From a virus: 27,498 nucleotides of DNA. Below are positions 1-27,498 of this stretch, in pieces (position 1 is the first letter of the stretch; every line of letters starts with the position of its first letter). The stretch is from the IMG/VR virus record IMGVR_UViG_3300019754_000016, positions 1 to 27,498 of that record, one strand, 5' to 3'. The position numbers and the translations under genes are program-made. The notes under the pieces were generated by a model that was not told where the DNA came from, ran no database searches, and worked only from the letters and a program-made list of their open reading frames with translations.

Positions 1-8
1 CTATATCT

Positions 9-181
9 TATGTGTATAAAATATTATGTGTATATTTTTGTTCACATGTGGGCTGTATTTTATGTGAATAACCTTTTTACATAATTACACGAAAACCTTA
101 AAAGTCCTATTTTATAGTATTTTTGTAGTTTTTATGTAATTATGTAAAAAAGTAATATTGTTTTAAGTGTATATTATGTAT
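9..181. repeat. Left terminal inverted repeat (putative hairpin telomere, left)
   Basis: The first ~180 bases are AT-rich and match the reverse complement of the right end in an ordered series of blocks. 9-19 matches 27462-27472 (11/11). 27-49 matches 27419-27441 (22/23). 61-71 matches 27397-27407 (11/11), with the same 11-base spacing from the previous block. 127-147 matches 27309-27329 (21/21). 162-181 matches 27256-27275 (19/20). Small indels separate some blocks. Copies of TTATNCACA (11-19 and 63-71, both on the reverse strand) and of TATGTAA occur inside. Ends that are inverted copies of each other next to a telomere resolvase gene are what resolution of a palindromic telomere site leaves behind. 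The exact hairpin tip cannot be placed; the right end carries about 30 more bases than the left. Confidence 0.8.
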
Positions 182-205
182 ACTATGGAATATTAAAAAA
201 AAAGG
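160..205 (+). promoter_or_regulatory. Putative promoter and RBS of the telomere resolvase gene, inside the left repeat
   Basis: The segment TTTAAGTGTATATTATGTAT (162-181) contains a TATTAT-like -10. It is repeated with one mismatch in inverted orientation at the right end (27256-27275), where it again lies upstream of genes pointing inward. An AAAGGA ribosome binding site (201-206) precedes the ATG at 212. The -35 is not obvious. Promoter assignment is inferred from composition, mirrored position and gene orientation. Confidence 0.45.
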
Positions 206-211
206 ATTTAC

Positions 212-1735
212 ATGAATAAGAGTGAAGCCCTAGCGTTACTATATAGTAAAAAAAATATAAGATTAACTGCTAGTAATTGGGATGAAGATGAGTTTATAAC
301 TCTTATAGATGGTGTAGTCGTGAGTTTGGACGGGAAAGCCTATAACATAATGACGGCAGAGGAAGATGAGTTTATAGAGTGGGTTGAGCCTATAAAAGTT
401 GAAACTCTTAAAAGAGAGGAGGCGTTACAAGCTCTCTTTGGGGGTAAACGCATAAAAGCTCTTGAATGGGATGATAGTGTTAACTTAATATTAAAAGATG
501 GTCAGATTGTTATAAATGATACTGAGCCTTTTAATATTATGACAGCGAATGAGGATAAATGGGTTGTTGTAGTTGATGAGGTAGAAAACAATTCTAAAGA
601 GATAAATACACTAACCGAAAAAGTGGATAAGTTGATAATGAAGATAGAAGAACAAGACACATTATTAAAGAAGATGGAAAATAAAGATAAAGTTCCTGAG
701 TCTGATGCTGATGTTGCTATCTCTCCTAAATGTGAAGAAGAGACAAACGAGAAGATAATGGCTGTATATGGTGTAAATAATTCTAACGAGGTTAAAATAC
801 TCTTTGCTGATGCAATTAAAAGTGCAAAAAATAAAAGAGATGTACAGGTTGCAATAACTACGGCAATACCTTATTGCTGGATAGGTAAAAAACTACATAC
901 TACAAAACTGTACTACTCAAACATGAGAAATATTGTTAAGGAGAGTTGCCCAGAAGAGTATGTCGATATGGCTCTAGTGCTACTAACACCTCCTAGTCGT
1001 GAAGTTACACGAATGGAGAAAGGTGTTGAGGTTACGACTAGAGTAGGTCTCTATGAATACCTCAAAGATGGTGAGATACAAGCTGGAGAGAGTAAGTATG
1101 ATGATAGAGATGATTATGACTTAGATATGGTAGAGGCTGTTACATCTAAATTAAGAGATGAGATACAAAATGAAAGCTATAAAGTGAGTAGGCAAGATCA
1201 GGTAGCTGGTCGTAGTGCTATGTATGTAAAGGCTACATACTTGGCACTAGTAACGGGTCGTAGAATGAGTGAGATACTTTTATCCGTTAAATTAAAAGAA
1301 AAAGGTGGACATTGGATTTATGATGGACTATTAAAAAAGAAAGATGATAAAGATCGTACTGGTGTGGCTTATACACTTGATAATGATATGGAGTTTTTAG
1401 CATCTCTCTTTGATGAGGTGCAAGAGCATGTACGAATCTCTATGGATGGGAAAGAGATAAACGAAAAGACTGTTGCAAGTAAATTTAATAGATCTTGTAA
1501 TAATGCATTTAAGAAGTTGACATCTACAAACTATACATTTAAGGATGCTAGAGAGATTTTTGCTGATACTCTTTGGAGATATGAGCAAGAAGCTAGAGAG
1601 AAAGAGGGACTTAGTGAACAAGGACAGATAGCAGAGGAGAAGTTTAAGGCTATGGTTCTTGAACACGAGTACGACAATAAGAAAACTCCTACCCTCAGTT
1701 ATATGACTAAAAGAGGTGTAAGAAATGATAAATAG
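212..1735 (+). CDS. Telomere resolvase (protelomerase)-like protein with duplicated N-terminal domain
   Basis: Protein of 507 aa. The C-terminal half (about residues 190-507) resembles the protelomerase/telomere resolvase family (TelN, TelK, ResT), which cut and rejoin a palindromic telomere site into two hairpin ends. Visible catalytic-type residues are Arg350 in TGRRMSEIL, a basic cluster at about 375-377 (LLKKKDD), Lys444 and Arg447 in FKDAREIFAD, His485 in LEHE and Tyr497 in LSYMTKRG as the candidate nucleophile. The first ~125 residues hold two copies of a ~55-residue unit beginning EALxxL and ending near FNIMTA.ED.W, similar in style to small phage DUF2829/Tad2-like domains; a Gln/Glu/Lys-rich coiled-coil linker follows. 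That fusion is unusual for the family. The gene starts 212 bases from the left end, and the terminal inverted repeats are its expected product. It overlaps the downstream parA by 11 bases, so the maintenance genes are probably one operon. An ordinary tyrosine recombinase is the alternative, but GRRMSE and KDAR favour a resolvase. Confidence 0.8.
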   Translation: MNKSEALALLYSKKNIRLTASNWDEDEFITLIDGVVVSLDGKAYNIMTAEEDEFIEWVEPIKVETLKREEALQALFGGKRIKALEWDDSVNLILKDGQIVINDTEPFNIMTANEDKWVVVVDEVENNSKEINTLTEKVDKLIMKIEEQDTLLKKMENKDKVPESDADVAISPKCEEETNEKIMAVYGVNNSNEVKILFADAIKSAKNKRDVQVAITTAIPYCWIGKKLHTTKLYYSNMRNIVKESCPEEYVDMALVLLTPPSREVTRMEKGVEVTTRVGLYEYLKDGEIQAGESKYDDRDDYDLDMVEAVTSKLRDEIQNESYKVSRQDQVAGRSAMYVKATYLALVTGRRMSEILLSVKLKEKGGHWIYDGLLKKKDDKDRTGVAYTLDNDMEFLASLFDEVQEHVRISMDGKEINEKTVASKFNRSCNNAFKKLTSTNYTFKDAREIFADTLWRYEQEAREKEGLSEQGQIAEEKFKAMVLEHEYDNKKTPTLSYMTKRGVRNDK

Positions 1736-7665: not shown

Positions 7666-7678
7666 ACTATCTCCTAAA

Positions 7679-9271: not shown

Positions 9272-9272
9272 T

Positions 9273-10438: not shown

Positions 10439-10453
10439 CTATGCTCCTTTGAT

Positions 10454-12790: not shown

Positions 12791-12882
12791 AAATTCCCCT
12801 TTTAATATTTTCAAACAATCTTATGAGATAAGACTCTGTGAAACTATTGCAGCACGGTCACACTTTTATTCTCTCGATAAGT

Positions 12883-12906
12883 CACAAGAGACTTTTGTCT
12901 CTTGTG
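12883..12906. terminator. Perfect 10-bp hairpin between the HU-like gene and the tape measure gene
   Basis: CACAAGAGAC, loop TTTT, GTCTCTTGTG just downstream of the HU-like stop on the minus strand. A T-tract is absent, so it may attenuate rather than stop transcription into the tape measure gene, or stabilise the upstream mRNA. The surrounding gap (12791-12913) holds no convincing gene; a second small stem, CTTAT/ATAAG, lies around 12820-12832. Confidence 0.5.
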
Positions 12907-12913
12907 TCGCACA

Positions 12914-13279
12914 TTAGATAGATACAGGTGCGTTGAGTGCGTCGAGTAGACTATCACTTGAGTTGAAACCGATGTGAAAACCAGCTGGTGCGTTGTGTGT
13001 AGTGTAAGTGCGTGGCAAGAAAGTACCTGGATTTGCAGGATCTTCCACAAGTTTGTTTGGTACTTTGTAAGCTCTAGCTTGATGCTGTCTAATTTCAAGC
13101 GTTCCAAGACCTTGTACTTTTACACCTTTTCCTGATGCAAGAGCTGCGATACTCAAATCTGATGCTACATCAAGGATTTGATCAACGGCTGTTTTCGTTA
13201 CTGTAATGCCTCTAGCTGTCAACTCTGCATGTACTGCTTCTCTAGCTTCTTGTTCATTTACTGTGTTTAATGCGTCCAT
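12914..13279 (-). CDS. HU/IHF-like DNA-binding protein in the tail operon
   Basis: About 121 aa from the ATG at 13279 (GGAGG 5 bases upstream; a TTG at 13291 is less likely). The sequence AVDQILDVASDLSIAALASG followed by KGVKVQGLGTLEIRQHQARA matches the HU/IHF fold: two helices, then the G.V.l.GlGtf.v..r.aR strands. After the arm region a Pro-rich loop (VEDPANPGTFLPRTYTTHNA) and PAGFHIGF close the fold. It is longer than normal HU (about 90 aa). HU-like proteins bend DNA, but here the gene sits between the E/E' chaperone and tape measure, where a structural or assembly protein would be expected. It may be a repurposed tail protein or a DNA-binding regulator made late. Confidence 0.65.
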   Translation of the reverse strand: MDALNTVNEQEAREAVHAELTARGITVTKTAVDQILDVASDLSIAALASGKGVKVQGLGTLEIRQHQARAYKVPNKLVEDPANPGTFLPRTYTTHNAPAGFHIGFNSSDSLLDALNAPVSI

Positions 13280-13322
13280 ATTTTCCTCCAAGGAAATAAA
13301 ATATTTTTTACAGCTTTGCCAA

Positions 13323-13338
13323 CCTAAATAAATTTAGG
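13323..13338. other. Small hairpin after the E' frame
   Basis: CCTAAA, loop TAAA, TTTAGG, located between the E' stop codon (13348) and the HU-like gene. AT-rich stem of 6 bp; possibly a weak mRNA 3' structure. Confidence 0.3.
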
Positions 13339-13347
13339 AGATTTTTG

Positions 13348-13814
13348 TTAGATGCGTCTTAGTTGCATCATCTCAATTTTTTGTTCATGTTTCTTTATGG
13401 CTACTTTATGCATTAGTAACCATTTGCTGTTGATAATATTCAACTGCTTATCAATAGGTATCCCCATAGCCTCATATATCAAGGCACGCGACTCTAGCAT
13501 CAGCTCCTCATCATTAGGGAGCAATACTAAAAATTTGTAAGCTCTTTAAGCACCTTATCACTATCTTTATCTGCTAGACTCAAAGCATCATCATAGTCAA
13601 TACCAGCAGATGAAGCTATCTGCAAATAACCGACCAATTTACCTTTCTCTGACTCTCTTGAGATACTTACATTATCGTGACCATTTAACTCTGTTAGAGA
13701 TAAAACTGTAATAGTTTTTTTACTTTTACCTACCTCAATCTCTTTTTTCTTACCAAATGGATAAGGTCTTGATAATTCAACTTCTGTTACACCATATTCA
13801 ACTTTTTCACTCAT
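13348..13814 (-). CDS. E: E+E' tail assembly chaperone fusion made by -1 ribosomal frameshift
   Basis: The E frame ends in ACA AAT TTT TAG. The heptamer A AAT TTT (13530-13536 on the minus strand) is a canonical X XXY YYZ slippery site directly before the stop. Slipping back one base opens a frame of 60 codons to the TAA at 13348, continuing LVLLPNDEELMLESRALIYE, then AMGIPIDKQLNI and KWLLMHK. The fusion would be 155 aa. P2 E/E+E' and lambda G/GT chaperones are made this way, with the longer form binding the tape measure. The extended frame is open, occupies an otherwise empty gap and has no good start codon of its own, which supports frameshifting. Confidence 0.8.
13527..13814 (-). CDS. E: Tail assembly chaperone E
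   Basis: Protein of 95 aa, matching P2 gpE (91 aa). VELSRPYPFGKKKEIEVGKSKKTITVLSL followed by a helical half (DYDDALSLADKDSDKVLKEL) is the pattern of the E/41/14 chaperone family, which coats the tape measure before the tube polymerises. TAGGAGA precedes the ATG. It follows FII, as in P2. It is the unshifted product of the E/E' pair. Confidence 0.85.
   Translation of the reverse strand: MSEKVEYGVTEVELSRPYPFGKKKEIEVGKSKKTITVLSLTELNGHDNVSISRESEKGKLVGYLQIASSAGIDYDDALSLADKDSDKVLKELTNF
13530..13536 (-). promoter_or_regulatory. -1 frameshift slippery heptamer A AAT TTT
   Basis: Read on the minus strand, the last two sense codons of E (AAT TTT) plus the preceding A form AAATTTT immediately upstream of TAG. 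Both P- and A-site tRNAs can re-pair after a one-base backward slip. No strong downstream pseudoknot is evident, but stop-codon proximity can stimulate slipping. Confidence 0.75.
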
Positions 13815-13828
13815 TTATATCTCCTATT

Positions 13829-14314
13829 TTAAAGTACATTCTTAGCGAATTTTTCAAGCAAATTCACACCATTTCCACCTAGTATAAGCTCTAACTTCTC
13901 TCTACTATATTTAACAGTTTGAGAGCCACTTACTACCTCTTCAAAGTTATCTATACGACCCTCCAAAGTTCGGCTGATATATTCACCCTCTTTTGTATCT
14001 GTACCTACTTTATGTAGTTGACAATTCATAGTCGCGGAGTAGGGTACATCTACACCGTTTTCACGGATATTCCCCTTTATGATGAACGACTCTCCAGCCA
14101 TCATAGCTGACAGATAAGAACCGCTCATGTCGTGGACTTGGATACTAATCTTTGCAGATTTTGGTATACCTGTAGACTCTTCGTCTACTACCTCAAACTC
14201 CCACTCGGGTAGTTTTACATCACCTGTCTTACCAAATGTATTCTTACCACCCATTACGATGGTTAAACCGCTAAGAACAGAACCCGTATTACCTAGACCT
14301 TGTTTTGTTGCCAT
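13829..14314 (-). CDS. FII: Contractile tail tube protein FII
   Basis: Protein of 161 aa (P2 FII is 172). VKLPEWEFEVVDEESTGIPK and KISIQVHDMSGSYLSAMMAGESFIIKG carry the conserved P2 FII pattern, in which an N-terminal LP.l.....e..gaG.....d strand is followed by charge-poor beta strands. KEGEYISRTLEGRIDNFEEV and KYSREKLELILGGN complete the fold. It forms the inner tube that is driven through the target envelope when the sheath contracts. AGGATAGAGAG precedes the ATG, and the sheath gene lies directly upstream. Confidence 0.9.
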   Translation of the reverse strand: MATKQGLGNTGSVLSGLTIVMGGKNTFGKTGDVKLPEWEFEVVDEESTGIPKSAKISIQVHDMSGSYLSAMMAGESFIIKGNIRENGVDVPYSATMNCQLHKVGTDTKEGEYISRTLEGRIDNFEEVVSGSQTVKYSREKLELILGGNGVNLLEKFAKNVL

Positions 14315-14318
14315 CTCT

Positions 14319-15515
14319 CTATCCTTGTGTTAGATTTTCTATCGCGTAGTATTCGTTTGTAGCGAGTGGTTGGATAACCATCGTACGCATACCCAGGTTG
14401 TTTCCTGCGATATAGTCCATATATATCGTACCTACAGCAACCTCTTCGGGTGTATTTTGATCACTCCATCTCGTTCTTGCACCTACAGCTGAACCAGCTT
14501 TTACTGCTTTACCCATAAAGGCTTCTGCATCAGCTTTGGCTAGATTGAAAACATCTGTCATAGGTCTATGTTTGTGCTTAACAAGAGTTCTCTGCAAACT
14601 CTCACTAATACCATCAAAGAAGCGGATAGTATCTAGTTTGTTAAAACGCTCATCGTCAAGAGGAGTTTCAAAATTGTATAACTTCCAACCGTCATCATTG
14701 AGCAGAACTGCACCGCCTGCATTGCAAATAATGTTAACTGCACACTCTTCTAGACCCTCTTCATAGTCGAGATGTGTGGTTGTTGACTCTACATCTTGAA
14801 TATTTCTGTTAGCGTGATCAAAGCAGAAGCCAAACTCTCCAAGCATTGAATCCCAATACGCTATATGACCAGCAACTATTGCAGAGTTAGGTTTCTCTAT
14901 AGTTGCATTCTCATAAACTGACCAAGCTCTCCTATAGAAAGGAAATACTAACTGTCTACGAGACCCTAGAGCTTCTAGTGCAGGTAAAGCCTCTGCTACT
15001 GTAGTGAGGTGTAGATCTCTGATAGCTATAGTCTTGGTATCTGTAGCCAATACCTCAAGAGCGTTATAGATAGTGATATCGTTAGAGAACCACGACGCTA
15101 TTGCTATACGCACTTTTGTAGCGTATCCATAGATAGTTCTTGAGAACTTTAGATTGTTTACTGCTAGCTCTATGTCAGTTTTGATCTGTGCATCACCATA
15201 GAACTCTTGTGGTGCGTTTAGTAGATGATCTTCTGTAACAGCTACTAGAGAGATAACTATAGGACTCTTTACATTTTGTCTATCTATATCCCACAAATCC
15301 TCTCTGATAGTTCCTTTTACATCTGCAAAGACTACAAGAGCCTCTTCAGCACTGTTAAATCTCAACAAGTTCTTATTGTCAGCCAGTGTGGCTTTCAGAC
15401 CATCGCTAAAGTTAGTTGTTACTGCTGTACCTACCACACCTATCACGGTTGTACTCTCAATCCTTGTGGCTGTAGCACTCATATTTTTTACGGGTAATAC
15501 TTTAATCCCAGGCAT
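14319..15515 (-). CDS. FI: Contractile tail sheath protein FI
   Basis: Protein of 398 aa, the length of P2 FI (396). MPGIKVLPVKNMSATATRIE, then TTVIGVVGTAV is the usual sheath opening with the VigiVGtA strand. ALEALGSRRQLVFPFY and SAIVAGHIAYWDSMLGEFGFCFDHANRNI match the family core. LDDERFNKLDTIRFFDGI and the C-terminal ENLTQG region fit the interlocking arms. It polymerises around the FII tube in an extended state and contracts on firing. GAAAGGAAA precedes the ATG. The full length with no visible damage argues that the tail module is under selection rather than decaying. Confidence 0.93.
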   Translation of the reverse strand: MPGIKVLPVKNMSATATRIESTTVIGVVGTAVTTNFSDGLKATLADNKNLLRFNSAEEALVVFADVKGTIREDLWDIDRQNVKSPIVISLVAVTEDHLLNAPQEFYGDAQIKTDIELAVNNLKFSRTIYGYATKVRIAIASWFSNDITIYNALEVLATDTKTIAIRDLHLTTVAEALPALEALGSRRQLVFPFYRRAWSVYENATIEKPNSAIVAGHIAYWDSMLGEFGFCFDHANRNIQDVESTTTHLDYEEGLEECAVNIICNAGGAVLLNDDGWKLYNFETPLDDERFNKLDTIRFFDGISESLQRTLVKHKHRPMTDVFNLAKADAEAFMGKAVKAGSAVGARTRWSDQNTPEEVAVGTIYMDYIAGNNLGMRTMVIQPLATNEYYAIENLTQG

Positions 15516-15740
15516 TTAATTTCCTTTCTCTATTTCTAAATTTCCATTTTCCAAATCATAGGTGATACCATCACCACAGACACCTTTTAAGATAACTTCA
15601 CCACTATCTACTATCTCAAAATCACTACACATCCAACAAGTCAAAGACTCATCATCATTTTTTTTGTAGAGGTGGTGATTTGCATCATTTGCAAAATGCT
15701 CAACCAGCTCTTCAATGAACAAAACCGCATTACTTCTCAT
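15516..15740 (-). CDS. Hypothetical protein (74 aa) between tail genes
   Basis: An ATG at 15740 with GAGGAG 8 bases upstream is preferred over an in-frame non-ATG start at 15794. The product is acidic, beginning MRSNAVLFIEELVEHFANDA, with HHLYKKNDDESLTCWMCSDF holding a CWMC pair, and ends in beta-strand-like repeats (GVCGDGITYDLENGN). It has no signal or membrane segment. It overlaps the PLA2-like gene by 11 bases and directly precedes the sheath gene. Accessory or chaperone roles are possible; the family is not recognised. Confidence 0.6.
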   Translation of the reverse strand: MRSNAVLFIEELVEHFANDANHHLYKKNDDESLTCWMCSDFEIVDSGEVILKGVCGDGITYDLENGNLEIEKGN

Positions 15741-16002
15741 TTTTACTCCTCTGTGCTTTTTTCCAAAAGTGCCAACCAGCAACACGAACCCCAAACCACA
15801 TGCTTACTGCTATAGTCTTGTTTGCGTGTTTTTTGAGACAGTTATAAAACTTTGCATCTGCTTTCCATCTGCTAACTCTTTGGCGTGTGTAGCTTGCATC
15901 GTGAAGCTTGCAACAAGGAGTTAGAATAAAGCCCTTAAAATTATCCCAAAAGCAAGTGCAGTAACCACGATTGCAAGCTGTATATATAAATTTAAAAAAC
16001 AT
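15730..16002 (-). CDS. Phospholipase A2-like small protein in the tail operon
   Basis: Protein of 90 aa. FILTPCCKLHDASYTRQRVS contains a C-C-x-x-H-D-x-x-Y arrangement (Cys30, Cys31, His34, Asp35, Tyr38), the catalytic loop pattern of PLA2-type enzymes, and RWKADAKFYNCLKKHA supplies the second helix with Ala-Asp (Asp49). Several extra cysteines (10, 15, 17, 55) could form disulfides. A hydrophobic-aromatic C-terminal helix (IAVSMWFGVRVAGWHFW) could touch membranes. PLA2-like domains occur in some phage and parvovirus particles for membrane penetration. It follows the tail fibre chaperone-like gene, overlapping it by 11 bases. Enzymatic activity is inferred from motif only; a structural HDxxY protein is the alternative. 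Confidence 0.5.
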   Translation of the reverse strand: MFFKFIYTACNRGYCTCFWDNFKGFILTPCCKLHDASYTRQRVSRWKADAKFYNCLKKHANKTIAVSMWFGVRVAGWHFWKKAQRSKNEK

Positions 16003-16510
16003 CTGGGAACTCCATATAGTTAGGCTCTCTACCCTCTTCTATAGCTAGCTTACCCTCGATGATAGCTTGCTCTGCCCACTCTGTGCGTATAGCTACTTTG
16101 ACTAACTTTTCATAAAACGGTCTAATCTGCTCTTCTACACTAGAGAGTATATTTTCTAAAGTTTGACCACTAAAAAAGAGAGTGGCATAGTTGACTACTT
16201 TTTGCTCTATCTCTGTTTGACCAAGTGCTACTAGTTTGGTTCTGTAGGCATTTGACCACATTAGGTCTTGGCTTTGTGCAGATTGACTGTATACGCTATA
16301 TATGTATATCTCTATATTTTTGTATTTTTGTTCTAGTTCTAGTATAATTTTTTCTTCATCTGTATATTTAGGTTCTGCTTTGTTTTCTTTAAACCATTCT
16401 GCCAGCTCTTTTTCATCATCTACATCATAATCAAAAGGAATAATTCTCTCATCATATAAACCAAAATTGACTAACCAGCCGTCATCACTTATCTTTACTT
16501 TTTTTATCAT
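15992..16510 (-). CDS. Putative tail fibre assembly protein (gpG position)
   Basis: Protein of 172 aa directly after the tail fibre gene, where P2 gpG and related fibre chaperones sit. It starts MIKKVKISDDGWLVNFGLYDE, followed by FDYDVDDEKELAEWFKENKA, then a long helical region with Glu- and Gln-rich segments. It lacks clear sequence similarity to gpG that I can see, and the assignment is positional. The beginning resembles short beta-strand adaptor proteins with a predicted lead domain. GAGAGG precedes the ATG. Confidence 0.45.
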   Translation of the reverse strand: MIKKVKISDDGWLVNFGLYDERIIPFDYDVDDEKELAEWFKENKAEPKYTDEEKIILELEQKYKNIEIYIYSVYSQSAQSQDLMWSNAYRTKLVALGQTEIEQKVVNYATLFFSGQTLENILSSVEEQIRPFYEKLVKVAIRTEWAEQAIIEGKLAIEEGREPNYMEFPDVF

Positions 16511-16514
16511 TTTT

Positions 16515-17360
16515 TTACCTCTCCACCCTAACTATATATCTTGCTTTTACATTAGCTCTATTTACAAGAGCATATCCGCCCTGATGTCTACCATACGACT
16601 CCTCTACCAAAAAAAACATCCTACCGTCAGAGGAGATAGAGGTTTTAGCTACTTCTCGTACTGTATCTAGCACACCATACTGATAAAACATAATCTCTCC
16701 TGAACCATTACCAGAGCTTATGCCTGTTATGGTCGAATCTGCTTTTTTTAACGCTTGCAGTACATCATATTTAAAGCTAAAAGGATCATCTCTAGGCATT
16801 TGTATCGAAAATCCATTCAGCTCAATTGCTACAGATATAAAAGCAGTATTTCCTACCGATCTAATTTCCACGCTAATAAAACCAACGCCAATTGCGGTAT
16901 CTCCGAATACATTTTCTTCTGTTATGTATGTATCTGCTTCATCAGCCACTGAATACGAATGCCAAGTTTGAGCGTATCTTGCGAAAGATGCCGAATTTAA
17001 ATTATTTAATTTATCTGAATTAGAAGCAGTACCTGTTAAGGGTAGATAATTATGTGTATGATTGGCTAATGCATATTTACTTAAGTCTATGGATGTTAAT
17101 GCTGAATCTAATTCTGTAATAGCATTAGCATTAGCCTCTACAGCACTTTTCAGCCAATTAGTCCTAGAACCTAACTGTTTGAAGACAGTAGAGTTTGGTG
17201 CGTGTTGCCCTCCTAGGTCATCTGTGGTAGAAGATGGTGCATGCAGGTTTGTACACCACTTGTTATCCTCACCAAGGACAATAAGTGTCTCTTCTATGAC
17301 TATGTCTTTATCTTCTAATTCAACCCCATTCGTTTCAAGCTGTGCTTGTGTATATTCCAT
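16515..17360 (-). CDS. H: Tail fibre protein (gpH-like), short
   Basis: About 281 aa from the ATG at 17360 (GGAGG upstream; a TTG at 17372 is less likely). The N-terminal part (HAPSSTTDDLGGQHAPNSTV) and SKYALANHTHNYLPLTGTAS, then DKLNNLNSASFARYA, are typical collar and repeat elements of tail fibres (NHTH and A.A.kLnn). The C-terminus is a beta-rich unit (SGEIMFYQYGV, then GRMFFLVEESYGRHQGGYALV) that should carry the receptor-binding tip. It is much shorter than P2 gpH (669 aa) or R-pyocin fibres, so it is either a short fibre or a reduced version. The tip decides which strains the particle binds. Confidence 0.8.
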   Translation of the reverse strand: MEYTQAQLETNGVELEDKDIVIEETLIVLGEDNKWCTNLHAPSSTTDDLGGQHAPNSTVFKQLGSRTNWLKSAVEANANAITELDSALTSIDLSKYALANHTHNYLPLTGTASNSDKLNNLNSASFARYAQTWHSYSVADEADTYITEENVFGDTAIGVGFISVEIRSVGNTAFISVAIELNGFSIQMPRDDPFSFKYDVLQALKKADSTITGISSGNGSGEIMFYQYGVLDTVREVAKTSISSDGRMFFLVEESYGRHQGGYALVNRANVKARYIVRVER

Positions 17361-17362
17361 AT

Positions 17363-17965
17363 TTACCTCCAAGTCCCGTGTTTTGTTGTTCCGTCATGTT
17401 TTGTTTTCCCATCGTGTAGATTTCTAAGCGTGCTGATAAAGCCCACTATCTCACACCTAGTTGGGATAGTAGTTCTAAGTAACCTATGTGCTAGTCTAAT
17501 CTGTCGCACTGAGGCTGGTACAGAGATAACTACAGCTATCTGCCACCAGCTGTTAATAGCTAGGTTGTAGATATTCATACCGCCGTTATGCTTGGAACTG
17601 CCATCGTGTTTGGAACTACCATCGTGTTTTTGCTTATGCTTATAGTCTTCTCTAGTCCAGTACTCTATTATCAGAGCTGGAGCTTCTAGCGTATGCAATC
17701 CGATGCTAGAAAGAGCATCCAACGCACTCTGTATAGTTCCTTTTTTGCCATATATCTTGCTAGAGTTGGCTATATAGTTCCTAGCTTCTCTCTCTGTCAT
17801 ATCAGCTATATTTAGATTTTCACTAACTGCAAGATGAGGCAATAGGGTAGCTTTGCAAGTCATAGGATTGGTATCTAGTTCCTCATAACTGCACATAGCT
17901 TTTTTGTCTAAAAACTCTGCAAAATTTTGATCTTTTATAGGATACTTATATGGTAAGAGTCTCAT
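17363..17965 (-). CDS. I: Baseplate/tail protein I
   Basis: Protein of 200 aa, near P2 gpI (176 aa). RLLPYKYPIKDQNFAEFLDK and TEREARNYIANSSKIYGKKG then TIQSALDALSSIGL match the gpI domain, which helps attach fibres to the baseplate. The central and C-terminal parts contain short repeats of KHDG type (residues ~113-129 and ~183-200), seen in many gpI-like proteins near the fibre junction. GAGGTAGCAG precedes the ATG. It overlaps gpJ by 4 bases (17962-17965) and is followed by the fibre gene. Confidence 0.82.
   Translation of the reverse strand: MRLLPYKYPIKDQNFAEFLDKKAMCSYEELDTNPMTCKATLLPHLAVSENLNIADMTEREARNYIANSSKIYGKKGTIQSALDALSSIGLHTLEAPALIIEYWTREDYKHKQKHDGSSKHDGSSKHNGGMNIYNLAINSWWQIAVVISVPASVRQIRLAHRLLRTTIPTRCEIVGFISTLRNLHDGKTKHDGTTKHGTWR
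17578..17640. repeat. Short in-frame tandem repeats in gpI coding region
   Basis: Units such as TTGGAACTGCCATCGTGTTT and near copies encode the KHDGSS units. Related CATCGTGT/CGTCATGT repeats encode the C-terminal KHDG units at 17363-17416. They give homologous tracts at the gpI-fibre boundary. Confidence 0.6.
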
Positions 17966-19077
17966 TCTGCTACCTCTCTAAAAGAGATATTTAGAACATC
18001 TATGACTATCACTTTTGTATCATCTATTATCAAGTCACTAAAGTCTGTATTGACTCTATAAACATTATCTAAATGGCACTTTCTAAGTACATCGGATAGA
18101 ACCAAATCTTGCCCGATAAAAAGAGAATCTTTGAAATTTGCTCTAATGACCTTTTCAGTCTCGACCGCTTCCAACAAGTCAAATAGCTCTATCTCTATAT
18201 CTAATGTGATATTCTCTACAACAGCTAAGAGCGGTGTAGGTTTGTCGCTTATAGGTCTTACAGTTTTATCGGTCAAAACTGTACTTATTCTCTCTAGCAT
18301 CGCTTCATCTGTCGAAGAGAAGCTATGTACTACTATATAGACAACTCCATCTGTTGCAGAGATCTTTACATCATCTATACGAGAGTCAGCAAATCTCGTA
18401 TAGTATTCGTATGCATCACTACAACCAGCGGTGCTATATTTAGCGTTTGATAAGATTATCCTCATTCTGTATCTCTCATCATCTTCTAGCACAAAACCAT
18501 TTTCAAAGCTACTCAACTGTTTTGGTGCTACCACAAAAGGAAGAGTAGTAACGATATTCTCACACTTCACCTCACTAGAGACTACATACTTATTAAGCTC
18601 TATTGCTCCCTGTACAGTCACATCACCTTTTTTTATAAGTAGATTCTCTACTATCACGGCTTCAAGAGGCTCTTGACTAGATGCATCTGTGCTATTGTTT
18701 AGGATTGTTCCTCCTGGTATAGTCACATCAAAAGGTAGAGTCGTAGAAAGTTCAAAGGTCATCAAAGCTCTAGGCTTCTCACCATTATCACGCACTACCT
18801 CTTTCTCTAGTCCTAAGTGATCTAGATTGATACCCGTAGCAGTTGTAACTAGCATCTGCCTAATAGTTTCATTTTTATCTGCTTGGTTGTGCATCTGTCT
18901 CAAAGTAAGTACTCTAAGCTTCTTCATATATGGGTCAGACTCAAGAGGTAACCAATCATTACCCAATACCTCTTTTGCTAAGAGTATATTATCAGCTAGT
19001 AATGTGTCGAACTCATCTACTTTTATAACTGTAGGTTCTGCTAATGTGTCTAATCTCTCTTGTATCTCTCTACTCAT
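17962..19077 (-). CDS. J: Baseplate assembly protein J (wedge)
   Basis: About 371 aa from the ATG at 19077, which overlaps the W stop (ATGAGTAG); an upstream GTG at 19092 is less likely. P2 gpJ is 302 aa. SREIQERLDTLAEPTVIKVDEFD opens with the gp47/J pattern, ALMTFELSTTLPFDVTIPGGT is the conserved GT..... strand, and NAKYSTAGCSDAYEYYTRFADSRIDDVKI closely resembles the J core (Ea..sTAGp..aY.y.A.sadp.V.dv). It forms the wedge that triggers sheath contraction. Gene order W-J-I matches P2. Confidence 0.9.
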   Translation of the reverse strand: MSREIQERLDTLAEPTVIKVDEFDTLLADNILLAKEVLGNDWLPLESDPYMKKLRVLTLRQMHNQADKNETIRQMLVTTATGINLDHLGLEKEVVRDNGEKPRALMTFELSTTLPFDVTIPGGTILNNSTDASSQEPLEAVIVENLLIKKGDVTVQGAIELNKYVVSSEVKCENIVTTLPFVVAPKQLSSFENGFVLEDDERYRMRIILSNAKYSTAGCSDAYEYYTRFADSRIDDVKISATDGVVYIVVHSFSSTDEAMLERISTVLTDKTVRPISDKPTPLLAVVENITLDIEIELFDLLEAVETEKVIRANFKDSLFIGQDLVLSDVLRKCHLDNVYRVNTDFSDLIIDDTKVIVIDVLNISFREVAE

Positions 19078-19408
19078 ACGACAAAACCCCACTTATTACA
19101 CCTACATTCAAATGTACATTGAATTTAACAGTGCCTATATGCATCTCTGATAGGTCAAAAAAAGCTTTTTGAAAAGACAATCTAGGGTCAAAGTTACATG
19201 CATCTTTAAAATCTCTACGAATATCTATCATAGAAGAGTCATTAAGTGTCCTATGTTTCCTAGTAGGGAACAAAGTACCATAGGTAGGTAGATGCACTAC
19301 AGAGCGTAATTTGGTCATAAGTGCATCTGTCCAGCTATCTATAGGAGATACGGCATAGCCGAAGCCGTCTGTCGGTATAGTGGTGTCTAGTATCTCTATC
19401 TTTATCAT
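19070..19408 (-). CDS. W: Baseplate protein W (gp25-like)
   Basis: Protein of 112 aa (P2 gpW is 115). LRSVVHLPTYGTLFPTRKHR corresponds to the gp25/GPW region, where a G.r...peyGs.lw segment leads into a Asp/Arg-rich helix (IDIRRDFKDACNFDPRL) and ends in beta strands. W starts the baseplate sheath platform. It overlaps V by 4 bases and J by 8, so the three are coupled. Confidence 0.85.
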   Translation of the reverse strand: MIKIEILDTTIPTDGFGYAVSPIDSWTDALMTKLRSVVHLPTYGTLFPTRKHRTLNDSSMIDIRRDFKDACNFDPRLSFQKAFFDLSEMHIGTVKFNVHLNVGVISGVLSYE

Positions 19409-19839
19409 ATTACTTTACCATTCACAGAGACTACACCGAAAAACTCTATTTTTGGTGCAGTTATCTTCACATCGCAGGGAGTTTCTATCTCTATAGTTTT
19501 CTCTTTTAGGTTATGTTTGTAGATCGTGCCATCTTCAGCCCAAAAGATAATGTTATCCTCATCTATTAGCTCGTGGTGTGGTACTCCGTCATAGGCTATA
19601 TTATTATCTACATGGCCATCTTCATTTTTCCCCTCGTGATTGACGACTCTTACTTGGTCACCTTCGCGTGGTGGTATATGTGCTTTGAACGCACTTGATA
19701 TAGTAGAGGTATATGGAAGCCAATTAGTGTCTCTATCATCTACTAGTACTTTCACCTCACATTGTTTACCAGCACCTAGAGCTACATAGCGTATTTCAGA
19801 GATGCGACCTAGTTGCTCGTTCATCGCTTCATCTTTCAT
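19405..19839 (-). CDS. V: Baseplate spike protein V
   Basis: Protein of 144 aa in the phage baseplate assembly protein V family. Near the N-terminus VLVDDRDTNWLPYTSTISSA is the conserved strand of the OB domain (the place of W.p.......G), and REGDQVRVVNHEGK the typical eGdqV.v....Gd segment. The C-terminus has short repeats (IFWAEDGTIYKHNLKEKTIEI and CDVKITAPKIEFFGVVSVNG) that build the beta-helix spike. It is shorter than P2 gpV (211 aa), and the apical HxH metal site cannot be seen, so the spike may be blunt or use another tip protein. AGGAG precedes the ATG; it overlaps the o-spanin stop. Confidence 0.85.
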   Translation of the reverse strand: MKDEAMNEQLGRISEIRYVALGAGKQCEVKVLVDDRDTNWLPYTSTISSAFKAHIPPREGDQVRVVNHEGKNEDGHVDNNIAYDGVPHHELIDEDNIIFWAEDGTIYKHNLKEKTIEIETPCDVKITAPKIEFFGVVSVNGKVI

Positions 19840-20110
19840 TTAGAAGCTCCTGAAGAGAATTTAACTTTTCTGCGTTTTGGTAGTGTGCTTGGAGTAGTGC
19901 CATTCCATAGGCTCTTAGCTCATCTTCACCTTTGGCTATCTCTACATCTTTTAGAGTGTCAGGTGAGGGTGCAGGTGTAGCCACCAACAGCTCTGCTGGT
20001 ACTGTAGGCTCTACTACTTTGTACTCTGTTACTACTGTAGGCTCTATCACTTTGCTACTGCAAGCTGTTAGCGTGAGCAATAAAGTTATTGATAGTATCA
20101 ATTTTCGCAT
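19829..20110 (-). CDS. Rz1-like outer membrane spanin lipoprotein
   Basis: Protein of 93 aa with a lipobox signal (LLLTLTAC). The mature part is proline-rich at its start (VIEPTVVTEYKVVEPTVPAELL), a hallmark of o-spanins, and ends in a helical tail. It overlaps the upstream i-spanin-like gene by 56 bases in another frame, the classical nested Rz/Rz1 arrangement. The pair joins the inner and outer membranes during lysis. GAGAGAGG lies upstream of the ATG at 20110. Confidence 0.8.
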   Translation of the reverse strand: MRKLILSITLLLTLTACSSKVIEPTVVTEYKVVEPTVPAELLVATPAPSPDTLKDVEIAKGEDELRAYGMALLQAHYQNAEKLNSLQELLNER

Positions 20111-20363
20111 GACCTCTCTCCTTTGCTATTTTTGCTTTAAATCTTGTGAGTATTTCATTTCTCTTTTTGTTCTTTGCTATTAGCTTGAGTAGTGATTCAT
20201 CACAGCTCTTTGATGCGTTGGTCGCTGTGGTGATATCTGCTTGTAGTGTTAAGATGTTCTTTTGTTCTACTTCTCTCTCTTTGTTTTGCCATACTAGGTA
20301 GGCTACTAGAGCTATTATTATGGCTATTAGGAAAAAAGGGATTAGGTTTTTTAGGTTAGACAT
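20055..20363 (-). CDS. Rz-like inner membrane spanin
   Basis: Protein of 102 aa. A single N-terminal transmembrane segment (LIPFFLIAIIIALVAYLVW) is followed by a charged coiled-coil periplasmic domain (NKEREVEQKNILTLQADITT onward). Its 3' end overlaps the Rz1-like lipoprotein, and its 5' end overlaps the holin-like gene. Together with Rz1 it fuses the two membranes in the last step of Gram-negative lysis. Length and topology are as expected for Rz. Confidence 0.75.
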   Translation of the reverse strand: MSNLKNLIPFFLIAIIIALVAYLVWQNKEREVEQKNILTLQADITTATNASKSCDESLLKLIAKNKKRNEILTRFKAKIAKERGHAKIDTINNFIAHANSLQ

Positions 20364-20703
20364 GATCTTGACCTTTGCTAACTAAAAGCAATAGTTGCTT
20401 TTTTACTTCTTCATAACACTCTCTAGTATTTTGTCTCTCAAGCTCTGTAGTTTTTGTTATTAGAGCTATTACTTCTCTGTTGTGTGTTTCAGATTCTTTA
20501 TATAGTAGATTAAAATTGGTTTGATTTTCAACCATTTTGTCGAGAGTTTTAGATAGATTCTTTTGATATCCTTTGTCACTTAGTATGACCCAAAGCAAGA
20601 TAGCAGATATGAGAAAATACATTATCATAGATGCACCGATCACGCCTTGTTCTAAAAATTTATCTCCAACGGTGTATGCTACATTTTCTAAAGATTTTGT
20701 CAT
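20356..20703 (-). CDS. Holin-like membrane protein, first gene of the lysis and tail operon
   Basis: Protein of 115 aa with one hydrophobic segment near the N-terminus (GVIGASMIMYFLISAILLWVIL, about residues 20-41) and a coiled coil behind it containing KTLDKMVENQTNFN and TTELERQNTRECYEEVKKQL. One membrane span with a charged cytoplasmic helix resembles BhlA/UviB-type holins and phage-encoded lysis regulators. It overlaps the Rz-like gene, and it lies directly downstream of the strong promoter at 20733-20762. A classical holin role is likely but not certain; it could be an antiholin. Confidence 0.6.
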   Translation of the reverse strand: MTKSLENVAYTVGDKFLEQGVIGASMIMYFLISAILLWVILSDKGYQKNLSKTLDKMVENQTNFNLLYKESETHNREVIALITKTTELERQNTRECYEEVKKQLLLLVSKGQDHV

Positions 20704-22791: not shown

Positions 22792-23004
22792 ATGACAAGA
22801 GAAGACCTTTATACTGTACCTACAGATATGAGTTTGTTCCCGATAAAGTATAAAAAACAAAATTCAAATTTTTCTGTAAGAGCAGATATCATAAGAGATT
22901 TTACAATTTACGCAAAAAAAATGAATTTGAGTAAGTCAGGTGTTGTTGAGACTTTGCTAGAAAATTTCTTGATACAAGCGGGTGTCAGAGAAAAAAAGGC
23001 ATAA
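22792..23004 (+). CDS. Small RHH/CopG-like protein (70 aa)
   Basis: NSNFSVRADIIRDFTIYAKK followed by MNLSKSGVVETLLENFLIQAG has the pattern of a ribbon-helix-helix protein: a beta strand with a basic residue, then two helices. The N-terminus (REDLYTVPTDMSLFPIKYKK) is extended. AAGGA is upstream of the ATG. It lies directly before the replication module, and the gene is flanked by a diverged inverted repeat (22684-22727 and 23059-23104). A CopG-type transcriptional repressor of the downstream primase gene is the likely role. The family cannot be proven from sequence. Confidence 0.6.
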   Translation: MTREDLYTVPTDMSLFPIKYKKQNSNFSVRADIIRDFTIYAKKMNLSKSGVVETLLENFLIQAGVREKKA

Positions 23005-23127: not shown

Positions 23128-24147
23128 ATGGAACAATTAACGCTAGAACAATTAAAAGAATCCCTCGACATCGTACAGATAGCAGAACTCTACGGAGAAC
23201 TCATCAAAAGCGGTGCTAACTACAAATACAAAGATGATAAAAGCATCATTATAAATGAAACCAAACAAATGTTTAGCGATTTTAATGGAAGTATCACAGG
23301 TGGGTCAGTCTTAGACCTCATAACATACATGGAAAAATGTGACTTAGCAGCAGGGATTAAACGACTCAAAGAGCTAAACGGTCAAGAGATCTATCAAGTA
23401 GACCCAGCCCTCAAGCTCAAACGCAAAGAAGAGGCTAATAGAGAGAAAGTTGTAGACTTTCAAAAGTTGGGACTATTTGCACAAAATGACCTCAAAGCTG
23501 GTCAATCCAAAAAACCTTTTGTAGTAGAAGACGAAACAACAAATCAAAGCTATCTATCAGTTAACCCCACTTTTACAAAGCTGTTTGAAACAGACAAACT
23601 CCCACTAGACACAAAACTAAAGCTAGACTATCTTCACTCCAAGATAATCGGATATGATGAGTTCTTCAAATGCTCTAGCATCATCATCCGTGACCGTACA
23701 GGTAAAGTTGTAGATAAATGTGCATATAGACCAAATCAACCAGAGGGATATGACAAGTGGACCAACCCGAAGTATATACATAAAAATAGTCACAATAGAG
23801 GTCAGGACTTTTTGTATCCTTTTCAAGTTGAGGTGGAGAAGATAATCAAGAGGGAAAGATACCTGATAGTAGGTGAAGGTATCAAAAACGCTATCAATGC
23901 TCTTTTGTACTCTGCACCTTTTATAAGTGTAGAGAGTTCATCAAATAGTACGAATAAAGAATTTATAAAATATATCAATAGTTATATAGATAGAGGTTTC
24001 TCTATCATATATATGTTTGATGGGGATAAAGCTGGTCAAGAAGCGTTTATCAAATTCAGAGAGGTATCAGGAATAAATGCAGATAATTATCTAAGCTTTG
24101 ATAGTGGGATAGATTTTACAGATTATCTTTTGAGTAGTGAATCATGA
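23128..24147 (+). CDS. Toprim primase-like replication protein
   Basis: Protein of 339 aa. The N-terminal ~85 residues resemble a CHC2-type primase zinc domain (LDIVQIAELYGELIKSGANY, then GSVLDLITYMEKCDLAAGI), but the zinc cysteines and histidine are missing. The C-terminal half has Toprim motifs: LIVGEGIKNAIN with Glu250 and IYMFDGDKAGQEAF with Asp298 and Asp300. In N15 the single RepA protein joins primase and helicase; here they are split, with the stop of this gene overlapping the helicase start (ATGA). It presumably primes replication of the element. AAAGG precedes the ATG. Which strands it primes, and whether the altered zinc domain binds DNA, cannot be told. Confidence 0.8.
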   Translation: MEQLTLEQLKESLDIVQIAELYGELIKSGANYKYKDDKSIIINETKQMFSDFNGSITGGSVLDLITYMEKCDLAAGIKRLKELNGQEIYQVDPALKLKRKEEANREKVVDFQKLGLFAQNDLKAGQSKKPFVVEDETTNQSYLSVNPTFTKLFETDKLPLDTKLKLDYLHSKIIGYDEFFKCSSIIIRDRTGKVVDKCAYRPNQPEGYDKWTNPKYIHKNSHNRGQDFLYPFQVEVEKIIKRERYLIVGEGIKNAINALLYSAPFISVESSSNSTNKEFIKYINSYIDRGFSIIYMFDGDKAGQEAFIKFREVSGINADNYLSFDSGIDFTDYLLSSES

Positions 24148-25973
24148 GTGTAAATAACATACAACAAAAACTTGATGCTATTAAAGAAAAAGCTAAAGCA
24201 AACCTATCAGACCAAAGCGATCACTACAGTGCTGTAGCTGGTCATATAGAGGAAGCCAAAAACATAAGAGAGTCAAACAGACTACACAATCAAGATCAGG
24301 TCAAAAAACTTGATAAAGATTTTGCAGATGAGATCAAAAGTATAAATGAAGATTTTAGTAAATCAGAAGATTTAAGCGTTAAAGACAAACTAGAATCACT
24401 TGAAAATGCTTATTTTAAATATGCAAAGAAAAAAGCATCACTTGATAGACTTGGAGAAGAGACACTGTTTTTTGATTCGATCACAGATATGTTCGTCCGT
24501 GTCAGCTGGTATACCTATGAAGACAAGAAAGGGAACAAAGAAGAGAGACTAAGAACAGATAGGTTCAAAAAGAGTGTTATCAGTAAATTTATAGATTTAG
24601 ACTCAAAGCGTAGAATAGGTATACATATAGATAACAAAAAGGTAAATAATATACTTAGAGAGTTTAGACCATATATAAAAGAGTTTGAGCCTGCTAAACC
24701 TAAATTTTATGGAGACTTTTTCAACACTTACACACCAAACGGTTTTTTAGATGTAAATGTACAAAATGTACTATCATTAGAGAAGTTTACTAATGTAACT
24801 CTCCCTAGCAGATACCCTCATATCAACGCACTACTTAACAATATAGCACCAATGGAAGATGAGAGGGTATTTATGCTCAATTGGCTCTCTACTATCCTCA
24901 ACACATCAAAGAAAACTAGAACAGCCATCATCCTCAAAGGTATTCAGAGAACAGGCAAAGGTGTATTTGCAGCGAAGATCATCGAACACGCCATGAATGA
25001 AGCAAACTGTTATATAGCTACAAATGCTAACTTATCAGAACACTTTAACGGATATCTGGAAGATAAGCTTTTTATCACTTTTGATGAAGTCAAAGGAGAC
25101 TTTGGTAAAGACAAAGATATTGGTAACCAAATAAAGCTCATAGTATCAGAAGAGCGGATGAGTATTAGGATAATGAATAAAGACTCATATATGATTAAGT
25201 TCCATGCTAATTGTATATTTTTGAGTAACGAAGACCTACCCATACCGATGGATCAATCCGATGAGAGGTTATCTGTCATAGAAACACGCTCACGCACGCT
25301 TGCAACGGTTGCCAAAGATGAGTTTGATTTAGAGATACACGAATTTATAGAGCTATTAGAAAAAGAGAGGGATGAGTTCCTTATACATCTCAAGATGTGT
25401 ACATATAATGCTAGACTAGCATCTACCACGATTAACAACAAAATCAAAAGAGCTATACAAGATGCTACTGCTACCACTCAATCAATGTTAAAAACATCTT
25501 TCAGAGGTGGAGATGTAGATACTATAGAAGAGATGTTAATAGACGCTATACAAGACTCACAGCTAGAGTACCTCATCAAGGGAGAAGAAGAAGTTTTCAG
25601 AGAGTCACCAGATGGTTCTTTCAAAGTAAAAAAACAGATACCATTCACAGCAAACAATATCACTATGCTAGAATATTTTATAGATGAGTTTAGATTAGGT
25701 CAGTTATCAAACACCTCCCTAAAATGGTTCACAAAAGCCATGAAGATAGAACACATACTAAAATCCGATGTTAAATTCGGTAATTTTTGGAATCTCGTAC
25801 TATCCACACCTGTAACAGTTAAACTAAAAACAAATGATGGAGATAGAAAAGAGAAATTTAGACATATCAACCCACATTCAGAGATTAAGACATTTAGCTT
25901 TAACGGTCAGAACTTTACATACTCTGGACAAAAAACAGCAATCCTCACACAAAACCCTGAAGATGTTTTTTAA
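24144..25973 (+). CDS. SF3-type replicative helicase (VirE/D5-like, DUF5906 type)
   Basis: Protein of 609 aa. Walker A GIQRTGKG (residues 266-273) and Walker B LFITFDEVKGD (Asp314, Glu315) are clear, and NCIFLSNEDLPIPMDQSDERL matches the sensor and arginine-finger region of phage D5/gp4-type helicases. The N-terminal ~200 residues are charged helices followed by RRIGIHIDNKKVNN and a VSWYTYEDKKGNKEERLR stretch, perhaps a primase-interacting domain. The last ~120 residues could bind the origin. It is cotranslated with the primase-like protein. The origin-like iterons lie immediately downstream. Role: unwinding at the origin of the linear plasmid. Confidence 0.85.
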   Translation: MSVNNIQQKLDAIKEKAKANLSDQSDHYSAVAGHIEEAKNIRESNRLHNQDQVKKLDKDFADEIKSINEDFSKSEDLSVKDKLESLENAYFKYAKKKASLDRLGEETLFFDSITDMFVRVSWYTYEDKKGNKEERLRTDRFKKSVISKFIDLDSKRRIGIHIDNKKVNNILREFRPYIKEFEPAKPKFYGDFFNTYTPNGFLDVNVQNVLSLEKFTNVTLPSRYPHINALLNNIAPMEDERVFMLNWLSTILNTSKKTRTAIILKGIQRTGKGVFAAKIIEHAMNEANCYIATNANLSEHFNGYLEDKLFITFDEVKGDFGKDKDIGNQIKLIVSEERMSIRIMNKDSYMIKFHANCIFLSNEDLPIPMDQSDERLSVIETRSRTLATVAKDEFDLEIHEFIELLEKERDEFLIHLKMCTYNARLASTTINNKIKRAIQDATATTQSMLKTSFRGGDVDTIEEMLIDAIQDSQLEYLIKGEEEVFRESPDGSFKVKKQIPFTANNITMLEYFIDEFRLGQLSNTSLKWFTKAMKIEHILKSDVKFGNFWNLVLSTPVTVKLKTNDGDRKEKFRHINPHSEIKTFSFNGQNFTYSGQKTAILTQNPEDVF

Positions 25974-25998: not shown

Positions 25999-26071
25999 TA
26001 GGAACGCCAAACCCCACCACGGGAACACCGTAGGAACGGGTTAGGAACGCATAGGAACACTACTAGGAACG
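25999..26071 (+). repeat. Left iteron array (TAGGAAC), putative origin
   Basis: TAGGAAC occurs at 25999, 26031, 26042, 26052 and 26064, plus a degenerate GGGAAC at 26021. Spacing of the last four is 10-12 bases, one helical turn. The extended unit is about TAGGAACGGGT. The array is mirrored by the GTTCCTA array at 26255-26326. Confidence 0.85.
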
Positions 26072-26254
26072 CCACTTAAAACCCCACCAAAGCCCTACCA
26101 CACCGCAAACAAGCCACTTTTTTAACCTACTTTTATATTTTTTTTCAAATTCCTTTTTATTTTTTTAAAACTTTTTTCTACAAAATTTTTTATTTTTATT
26201 GTGTAATCCTCTGTAGGCTCAGTGTGGTGGGGCTTAGTGGCTTTTTATGCTAGT
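26072..26254. other. AT-rich core between iteron arrays (putative DNA-unwinding element)
   Basis: About 26117-26206 is almost entirely A and T, with long T runs (such as 26120-26170), flanked by inverted segments: the ACCCCACCAAAGCCCTACCA-like sequence at about 26081-26100 and GTGTGGTGGGGCTTAGTGGC at 26222-26241. No ORF of note is present. An easily melted core between opposed iterons fits a bidirectional replication origin. Confidence 0.6.
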
Positions 26255-26326
26255 GTTCCTAACCCGTTCCTAACCCGTTCCTAACCCATTCCTATACCCT
26301 TTTTTGGCGTTCCTATAGTGTTCCTA
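26255..26326 (-). repeat. Right iteron array (GTTCCTA), putative origin
   Basis: GTTCCTA occurs at 26255, 26266, 26277, 26309 and 26320, with ATTCCTA at 26288; spacing is 11 bases (one 21-base step). The sequence between is AACCC, so the unit is CGTTCCTAACC. It is the inverted partner of the left array. Confidence 0.85.
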
Positions 26327-26438: not shown

Positions 26439-26849
26439 ATGGGAAATACAATATCAACTAATTCATTCTCGGCTCAAGCAGAAACAGAAGAAGACCTCAT
26501 CAAAATACTCTTAGAAATGGGTGGTTATAAACATGCTGGAGAATTAGCTACATATATAGGCGTATCTGCCACAGTGCTGGACAATTATCCAAATATAACC
26601 CTAACATACCTTGGAGATATAATTGACGCTAATTTGACGCATTTGGGATATGTCATGAAAGATACAAAACAAGAGGGAATGCTAGGAGAGTATAGAGATC
26701 AGGTAGAGATACATAAAGAGTTAAACGCTCAAGACAGTAGACCACAACCTATAATCATAAATGATGGCATCATAACAGAGGCTGGAACTCTCAAAATTAG
26801 CTACATAGCCAACGCAGAGAGGATTATGAGAGCCTCTAACTCTATATAG
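26439..26849 (+). CDS. Putative HTH DNA-binding protein (136 aa)
   Basis: About residues 19-60 (EDLIKILLEMGGYKHAGELATYIGVSATVLDNYP) match the helix-turn-helix of CI/phage-repressor-like proteins, and the remaining NLTHLGYVMKDTKQEG is helical. The C-terminus has a beta-rich IIINDGIITEAGTLKISYIA. It has no peptidase domain. AAGG precedes the ATG. It lies next to the iteron region and could bind it or control the nearby primase promoter. Its exact function is unknown. Confidence 0.6.
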   Translation: MGNTISTNSFSAQAETEEDLIKILLEMGGYKHAGELATYIGVSATVLDNYPNITLTYLGDIIDANLTHLGYVMKDTKQEGMLGEYRDQVEIHKELNAQDSRPQPIIINDGIITEAGTLKISYIANAERIMRASNSI

Positions 26850-27190: not shown

Positions 27191-27244
27191 AACAAATCCT
27201 TTCAATTAAACTCACAAGCTAGGGGTCACACCCCCTCTCTTGCT

Positions 27245-27275
27245 GTAAGTATATTATACATTATATACACTTAAA
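27245..27275 (-). promoter_or_regulatory. Putative promoter of the micro-ORFs, inside the right repeat
   Basis: On the minus strand TTTAAGTGTATATAATGTAT (27256-27275) then AATATACTT. A TATAAT -10 is present. This is the mirrored copy of 162-181 near the telomere resolvase gene. A second truncated copy of the TTAAGTGTATAT motif occurs at about 27285-27297. Confidence 0.45.
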
Positions 27276-27472
27276 CCAACTTAAAATATACACTTAAAAA
27301 TATTAATATTACATAATTACATAAAAACTATTAAACACTTACAGTATAGGCACTATATAGATATTATGTAACTATGTAATTATGTTATTATGTAACTTAT
27401 TCACATAGAAATATCAATACATGTGAATAAAAATATACACACAAACAACTATAACAATATATTATACACATA
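27256..27472. repeat. Right terminal inverted repeat (putative hairpin telomere, right)
   Basis: Reverse-complement partner of the left end: 27256-27275 with 162-181, 27309-27329 with 127-147, 27397-27407 with 61-71, 27419-27441 with 27-49, and 27462-27472 with 9-19. An 8-base tandem TATGTAAC-type repeat (27365-27396, four copies) is inside. TTATNCACA boxes occur at 27397-27405, 27422-27430 (reverse), 27462-27470 and 27476-27484 (reverse). Confidence 0.8.
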
Positions 27473-27484
27473 CAATGTGAATAA
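27462..27484. other. Imperfect 23-base palindrome near the right end (candidate telomere tip)
   Basis: TTATACACA, spacer TACAA, TGTGAATAA: 8 of 9 arm bases pair. A palindrome close to the end of a hairpin-terminated replicon could be the telomere core, with the final ~25 bases being sequence read through the hairpin. The pairing beyond the arms is poor, so this remains a guess. Confidence 0.3.
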
Positions 27485-27498
27485 CTTTAAAATAGACA

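Follow-up and report, generated by a model that had tools for sequence, protein, structure and literature searches.

Positions 25999-26326 of a 27,498-bp viral contig (IMG/VR record IMGVR_UViG_3300019754_000016, analyzed whole and referred to here as the window) very probably form the oriV-like replication origin of a phage-like linear plasmid with hairpin ends. Judging from the sequence and from analogy with known replicons, we expect this origin to be bound by the product of the adjacent gene, a superfamily 3 (SF3) helicase resembling those of phage NrS-1 and the Staphylococcus aureus pathogenicity islands (SaPIs), which would load there as two opposed hexamers. An earlier note on this DNA had proposed a likely replication origin at the same place. 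That proposal is upheld by arrays that follow this helicase family through unrelated phages, by conservation with drift in three relatives, and by layout precedents in phage-inducible chromosomal islands (PICIs), SaPIs, and phage P4.

Anatomy of the opposed arrays and the adjacent helicase gene

The region carries the heptamer TAGGAAC in ten exact and two degenerate copies, distributed over two facing arrays of equal length (72 bp each, 65+7) (Table 1). Exact TAGGAAC copies start at 25999, 26031, 26042, 26052, and 26064, and the degenerate left copy, which matches at 5/7 positions, at 26020; on the right, GTTCCTA starts at 26255, 26266, 26277, 26309, and 26320, and ATTCCTA at 26288. All of the features that the earlier note had counted in these arrays were present. 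Chance would give 0.08 exact copies in 465 bp, where ten are present, and the highest count among 2000 Markov shuffles was 2. This array is the only place in the 27.5-kb record where any heptamer occurs at least 5 times within 350 bp.

The copies are spaced at multiples of one helical turn (21-11-11-10-12 on the left, 11-11-11-21-11 on the right). The phasing period within each array is about 10.8 bp (resultant 0.97 and 0.99), and the sites of one array therefore face one side of the helix. About a mirror centre at 26162.5, all but one of the five exact left copies have exact partners, and the remaining copy is one base off. The clusters converge on the core between them, and the first repeat starts 26 bp past the helicase stop codon at 25973, directly after the gene as the earlier note had it.

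The stretch between the arrays, previously described as about 90 bases of nearly pure AT, proved to be an AT-rich core of 88 bp, but at 12.5% GC it is not quite nearly pure. Inverted GTGGTGGGG-type segments, also reported previously, are present on both sides of the core, and one lies inside the left array. Alignment with the relatives described below places the left inner element on their AAGCCCTA...TAGGGCTT palindrome, and AAGCCCTACCACACC and GTGTGGTGGGGCTT of the window coincide with their palindromes; these matches account for the GTGGTGGGG-type segments.

The intergenic position, together with the HTH_17 and CI-like proteins encoded near the array, could also suit a regulatory region or terminator, that is, operators for a helix-turn-helix (HTH) protein or transcription control of the helicase operon and the open reading frame (ORF) at 26439. 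We consider this extremely unlikely, since twelve phased copies in 330 bp, with a melting core between the arrays, go beyond an operator, and across phages the array goes with the helicase rather than with a regulator.

The helicase gene product matches PF19263 (E 5e-21) and the NrS-1 CTR (E 1e-17), and in a Foldseek comparison its fold matches the helicase of NrS-1 and the primase-helicase of SaPI5. By homology and modeled structure, it is predicted to be of the SF3/AAA+ hexameric type. Its C-terminal 190 amino acids are conserved among relatives at 54-57% identity, and an AlphaFold model of the C terminus, of moderate quality (predicted template modeling score, pTM, 0.65), suggested a helix-helix-hairpin/wing order.

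Table 1. Features of the window, grouped by function
Feature	Coordinates	Strand	Description
Left iteron array	25999..26070	+	Five TAGGAAC and degenerate CGGGAAC; ACA-end towards core
Right iteron array	26255..26326	-	Five GTTCCTA and one ATTCCTA
T-rich core	26118..26205	.	12.5% GC (11 G/C in 88 bp); putative DNA-unwinding element
AAACCCCACCAC	26009-26020		Inside left array
Inner inverted element, left	26078..26105	.	AAACCCCACCA 26078-26088 / AAGCCCTACCACACC 26091-26105
Inner inverted element, right	26222..26236	.	AGTGTGGTGGGGCTT, partner of 26091-26105
SF3-type helicase (DUF5906)	24144..25973	+	Homologous to NrS-1 polymerase C-terminal hexameric helicase; proposed initiator
Separate primase (CHC2 zinc finger and Toprim)	23128..24147	+	Near-threshold Pfam scores; overlaps helicase gene start
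Telomere resolvase-like protein	212..1735	+	PF16684 just below cut-off; relative's homologue above cut-off
ParA-like protein	1725-2291		
Small protein encoded after ParA	2291-2596		ParB-like candidate
Ribbon-helix-helix-like protein	22792-23004
Left terminal inverted repeat (telomere region)	24..175	.	Local alignment to reverse complement of right end
Right terminal inverted repeat	27285..27444	.	Contains TTATTCACAT-N14-ATGTGAATAA, present at the end of relative L148 too
136-amino-acid ORF	26439..26849	+	No family match; between array region and right telomere

Conservation in relatives and in other phages

No relative emerged when viral contigs were scanned with the helicase or the resolvase as a single-protein query, and the sole match in a scan of viral contigs for ACAGAAACGGT looks like unrelated coding sequence. 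Relatives were found by genome scans with two-sequence and three-sequence helicase alignments. The three-helicase alignment identified L116, a 27,683-bp contig of an uncultured Helicobacteraceae metagenome-assembled genome (MAG), whose helicase is 60% identical to that of the window. Almost all of L116, from resolvase to helicase, corresponds to the window one gene at a time, and the contig stops within the left array. Its resolvase is 32% identical to the window's. A further scan yielded L147 and L148, whose helicases are also 60% identical.

In all three relatives, arrays occupy the same place 3' of the helicase, with the heptamer drifted from TAGGAAC to AGAAAC/CAGAAAC (CAGAAAC at a spacing of 10-11 bp in L116). 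L148 contains the whole dyad: AGAAACAC repeats, the first of which overlaps the helicase stop codon, a AAGCCCTAAATATAGGGCTT palindrome, a T-rich core of 2.4% GC, a second such palindrome, and GTGTTTCT repeats. L147 has an L148-like structure as far as its contig end. AAGCCC inverted elements and the T-rich core are thus shared by the two relatives with sequence beyond the left array, and core GC in relatives is 2-14%. Spacing, order, orientation, and core were kept while the heptamer changed in step, the mark that would be expected of an initiator co-evolving with its binding sites.

L148 carries a second repeat cluster at 8551-8750, upstream of the primase, with up to 7 copies of TACTCCA/TCCAAAA in 350 bp; the window has none. 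This cluster is possibly a centromere or a set of operators.

Arrays of this kind are tied to the helicase type across its family. We fetched 80 loci encoding VapE/DUF5906-type primase-helicases by protein only, avoiding selection by motif, and scored the 77 with enough sequence for a heptamer occurring at least 5 times within 630 bp downstream of the helicase stop codon; only protein-chosen loci entered the enrichment statistics. Such a heptamer was found in 46/77 loci, compared with 24/358 regions 3' of other ORFs from these loci, 3/147 control regions of the same size, and 6/1560 shuffles. The loci include related phages, so these counts are not independent; when loci sharing 20-mers were merged, arrays remained in 35/66 clusters. 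An array is missing 3' of the gene in phiA008 and Vibrio K300, the other good helicase matches, so that a DUF5906 helicase is not always accompanied by one. No heptamer was repeated 5 times in Streptococcus satellite Javan168. A three-TAGGAAC pattern scan also returned some repeats that looked unrelated (for example, long simple repeats without opposed copies), and these were not counted.

A set of 51 arrays was compiled from the survey, motif-found arrays, genome-scan loci, NrS-1, and P4. Both orientations occur in 50 of the 51. The clusters are separated by a median of 97 bp, and this intervening DNA has a lower GC content than the arms in 45 arrays. Cluster orientation relative to the core is not uniform, being divergent in many phages, unlike in the window. 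Although repeat sequences vary from phage to phage, they can be aligned on TGTYYC, with a score for 39 distinct cores of 243.5 versus 172.7 +/- 7.1 for letter-shuffled repeats; the P4 type-1 repeats, TGTTCACC, fall within this group.

In phage APSE-7 (3676-3912 of locus L145), seven opposed GTTGGTA repeats lie directly 3' of a VapE-type gene. The APSE-7 record marks a putative origin elsewhere, upstream of a Cro-like gene.

Known origins, alternative roles, and a proposed mechanism

An origin of this type is already known from PICIs, SaPIs, and P4, and the window shares its defining traits, an array directly 3' of the helicase gene and a helicase that is SF3-type by homology. PICI pri-ori replicates, and deletion of the origin impairs or abolishes replication (PMC6092414). 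According to one paper, which cites earlier work, the C-terminal domain of SaPI Rep recognizes iterons directly downstream of the rep gene, apparently as two hexamers, and SCCmec (staphylococcal cassette chromosome mec) Cch2 likewise uses its C-terminal domain (PMC7581432). EcCICFT073, SaPIbov1, and SaPI5 have an origin with the same opposed-iteron layout, and the SaPI5 helicase is a structural match to that of the window. Unlike the window, PICIs are integrated islands with telomere-free replication and another iteron sequence, and SaPI primases are of the archaeo-eukaryotic primase (AEP) type, whereas the window encodes a DnaG-type Toprim primase in a gene separate from the helicase.

In P4, the type-1 octamers lie in both orientations in crr, directly 3' of alpha, and share the TGTYYC core with the window. 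P4 differs in its single fused alpha protein, its second, remote ori, and its non-hairpin genome. Its type-1 repeats occur in both crr and ori; crr is required in cis, and ori lies 4.5 kb away. By this precedent, the arrays of the window could be one part of an origin at which synthesis starts elsewhere. A second array is absent from the record, and PICIs join both functions in one site, which makes a remote start very improbable.

The closest solved helicase structure is that of NrS-1, a Nitratiruptor phage of the Campylobacterota, which has a homologous hexameric helicase domain and, like the window, repeats directly 3' of its primase-helicase gene. It differs from the window in the fusion of PrimPol to the helicase, in its iteron, and in a less regular layout. 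The NrS-1 repeats (5149-5540 of locus L112) comprise 13 copies of AAAGTGT(AACC), mostly AAAGTGTAACC, 3' of the primase-polymerase gene ORF28 and overlapping the hypothetical ORF NRS1_29. From its sequence, this array is likely the NrS-1 origin; the passages of the NrS-1 structure paper that we consulted mention neither an origin nor this array.

Centromeres, too, typically have short repeats in two clusters with helical phasing, and the two clusters of ~11-bp repeats resemble R1 parC. The window encodes ParA, yet neither it nor the relative has a repeat array beside parA, so that the arrays at 25999-26326 might instead be a parS/parC-like centromere recognized by the small protein whose gene follows parA or by the ribbon-helix-helix-like protein. 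This reading is quite improbable: parA lies 23 kb away (1725-2291 versus 26 kb), without the adjacency to the par operon seen in R1 parC; in phages and P4, such arrays lie after helicases of this family whether or not par genes are present; and a T-rich core with inner inverted elements at the mirror centre is expected of an origin. A double role as centromere and origin is possible.

Some observations weigh against an origin bound by the adjacent helicase. About 40% of the helicase relatives have no detected 3' array, although some of these loci perhaps have short or degenerate iterons. Crenarchaeal plasmids of the pRN1 family likewise have their replication site directly 3' of the primase-helicase gene, and pRN1 requires this region (PMC4234260); unlike the window, the site in pRN1-type relatives is a 100-nt stem-loop with no iterons (PMC4234260). 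The model of the helicase C terminus had no significant match in the PDB; a DNA-binding domain there is accordingly putative, and we do not use the model as proof.

Taking 25999-26326 as the origin, we infer that the helicase, probably via its C-terminal region, would bind the two opposed arrays of about six phased iterons each. The dyad would set two hexamers face to face across the T-rich core, which would melt, with the helicases then loading onto the strands by themselves. Priming would fall to the separate Toprim primase, and a host replicase would extend in both directions, with forks travelling 1.2 kb rightwards and 26 kb leftwards to the telomeres, where the telomere resolvase would resolve the copied ends.

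The claim in the earlier note that opposed iterons are needed for a linear plasmid does not hold. P4, PICIs, and many phages without a link to a telomere resolvase have this layout too, and N15 and VP882 have no such array in or near repA. Because P4 and PICIs share the design, the opposed layout is no special adaptation to linearity; it would nonetheless suit it. N15 and VP882 resemble the element in being hairpin-type linear replicons with a telomere resolvase, partition genes, and a CI-like repressor. They replicate with one large RepA, in contrast to the separate primase and helicase and the external array of the window, and repA alone is reported to be a minimal replicon in PY54. We found no comparable array in or beside repA in the whole of VP882 and in 18 kb of N15 around repA; the sole VP882 hit was an AT-rich repeat just before the protelomerase gene. 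The window thus has the resolvase and terminal inverted repeats of an N15-type replicon without its single RepA lacking an external array.

What is new is the presence of this probable origin in a putative Campylobacterota hairpin linear element, unlike in N15 and VP882, and the repeat code across phages. In the literature collection searched, we found no paper that names TAGGAAC iterons or describes an iteron code of general validity for helicases of this kind; absence from that collection is weak evidence. As a generalization that we consider plausible without yet favoring it, the iterons of SF3/D5-type phage initiators may form one divergent TGTYYC (GRRACA) family co-evolving with the helicase, so that the origins of a large share of uncultured temperate phages and satellites could be read from the helicase 3' flank, and hairpin linear Campylobacterota plasmids with a contractile tail and no head genes may have adopted this origin instead of the N15-type internal one. 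The window itself gives a base-level location for the probable origin of a linear hairpin replicon from a phylum for which we found no telomere phage described, and a PICI/P4-type origin would be able to serve such a replicon. The cross-phage test yields a rule, to search 3' of an SF3 helicase for opposed TGTYYC-type repeats ~97 bp apart, which makes many uncultured phage origins testable and could support vectors for sulfur-oxidizing Campylobacterota.

Ends and gene content of the element

Linearity is independently supported by the telomere resolvase gene and the terminal inverted repeats. The terminal segments are imperfect inverted copies of one another (alignment score 104, shuffled maximum 45), and the L116 resolvase scores over the Pfam cut-off. 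Pairs of TTATTCACAT and ATGTGAATAA are conserved near both ends of the window (1-200 and 27240-27498) and at 12956-13047 of L148, and are candidate binding sites for the telomere resolvase. These features fit a near-complete linear replicon with putative hairpin ends.

The window also encodes DNA methylases, a CI-like repressor, and a P2-like contractile tail cluster. The tail cluster (6957-20703) is complete, with sheath, tube, tape measure, hub, baseplate, fibre, and endolysin genes; no capsid, portal, or terminase genes were recognized in the window. In the syntenic 27.7-kb Helicobacteraceae MAG relative (L138/L139), tail gene order is kept and no extra head-sized cluster was seen. The element is possibly a hairpin-ended linear plasmid with a headless (tailocin-like) tail or a segment of a split phage genome. 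The helicase had no match among plasmid records, and the Helicobacteraceae MAG relative and the similarity to NrS-1 suggest a Campylobacterota host. The ORF between the array region and the right telomere has a homologue at the same place in L148 (12312-12754) that is 34% identical, the sizes being 136-147 amino acids.
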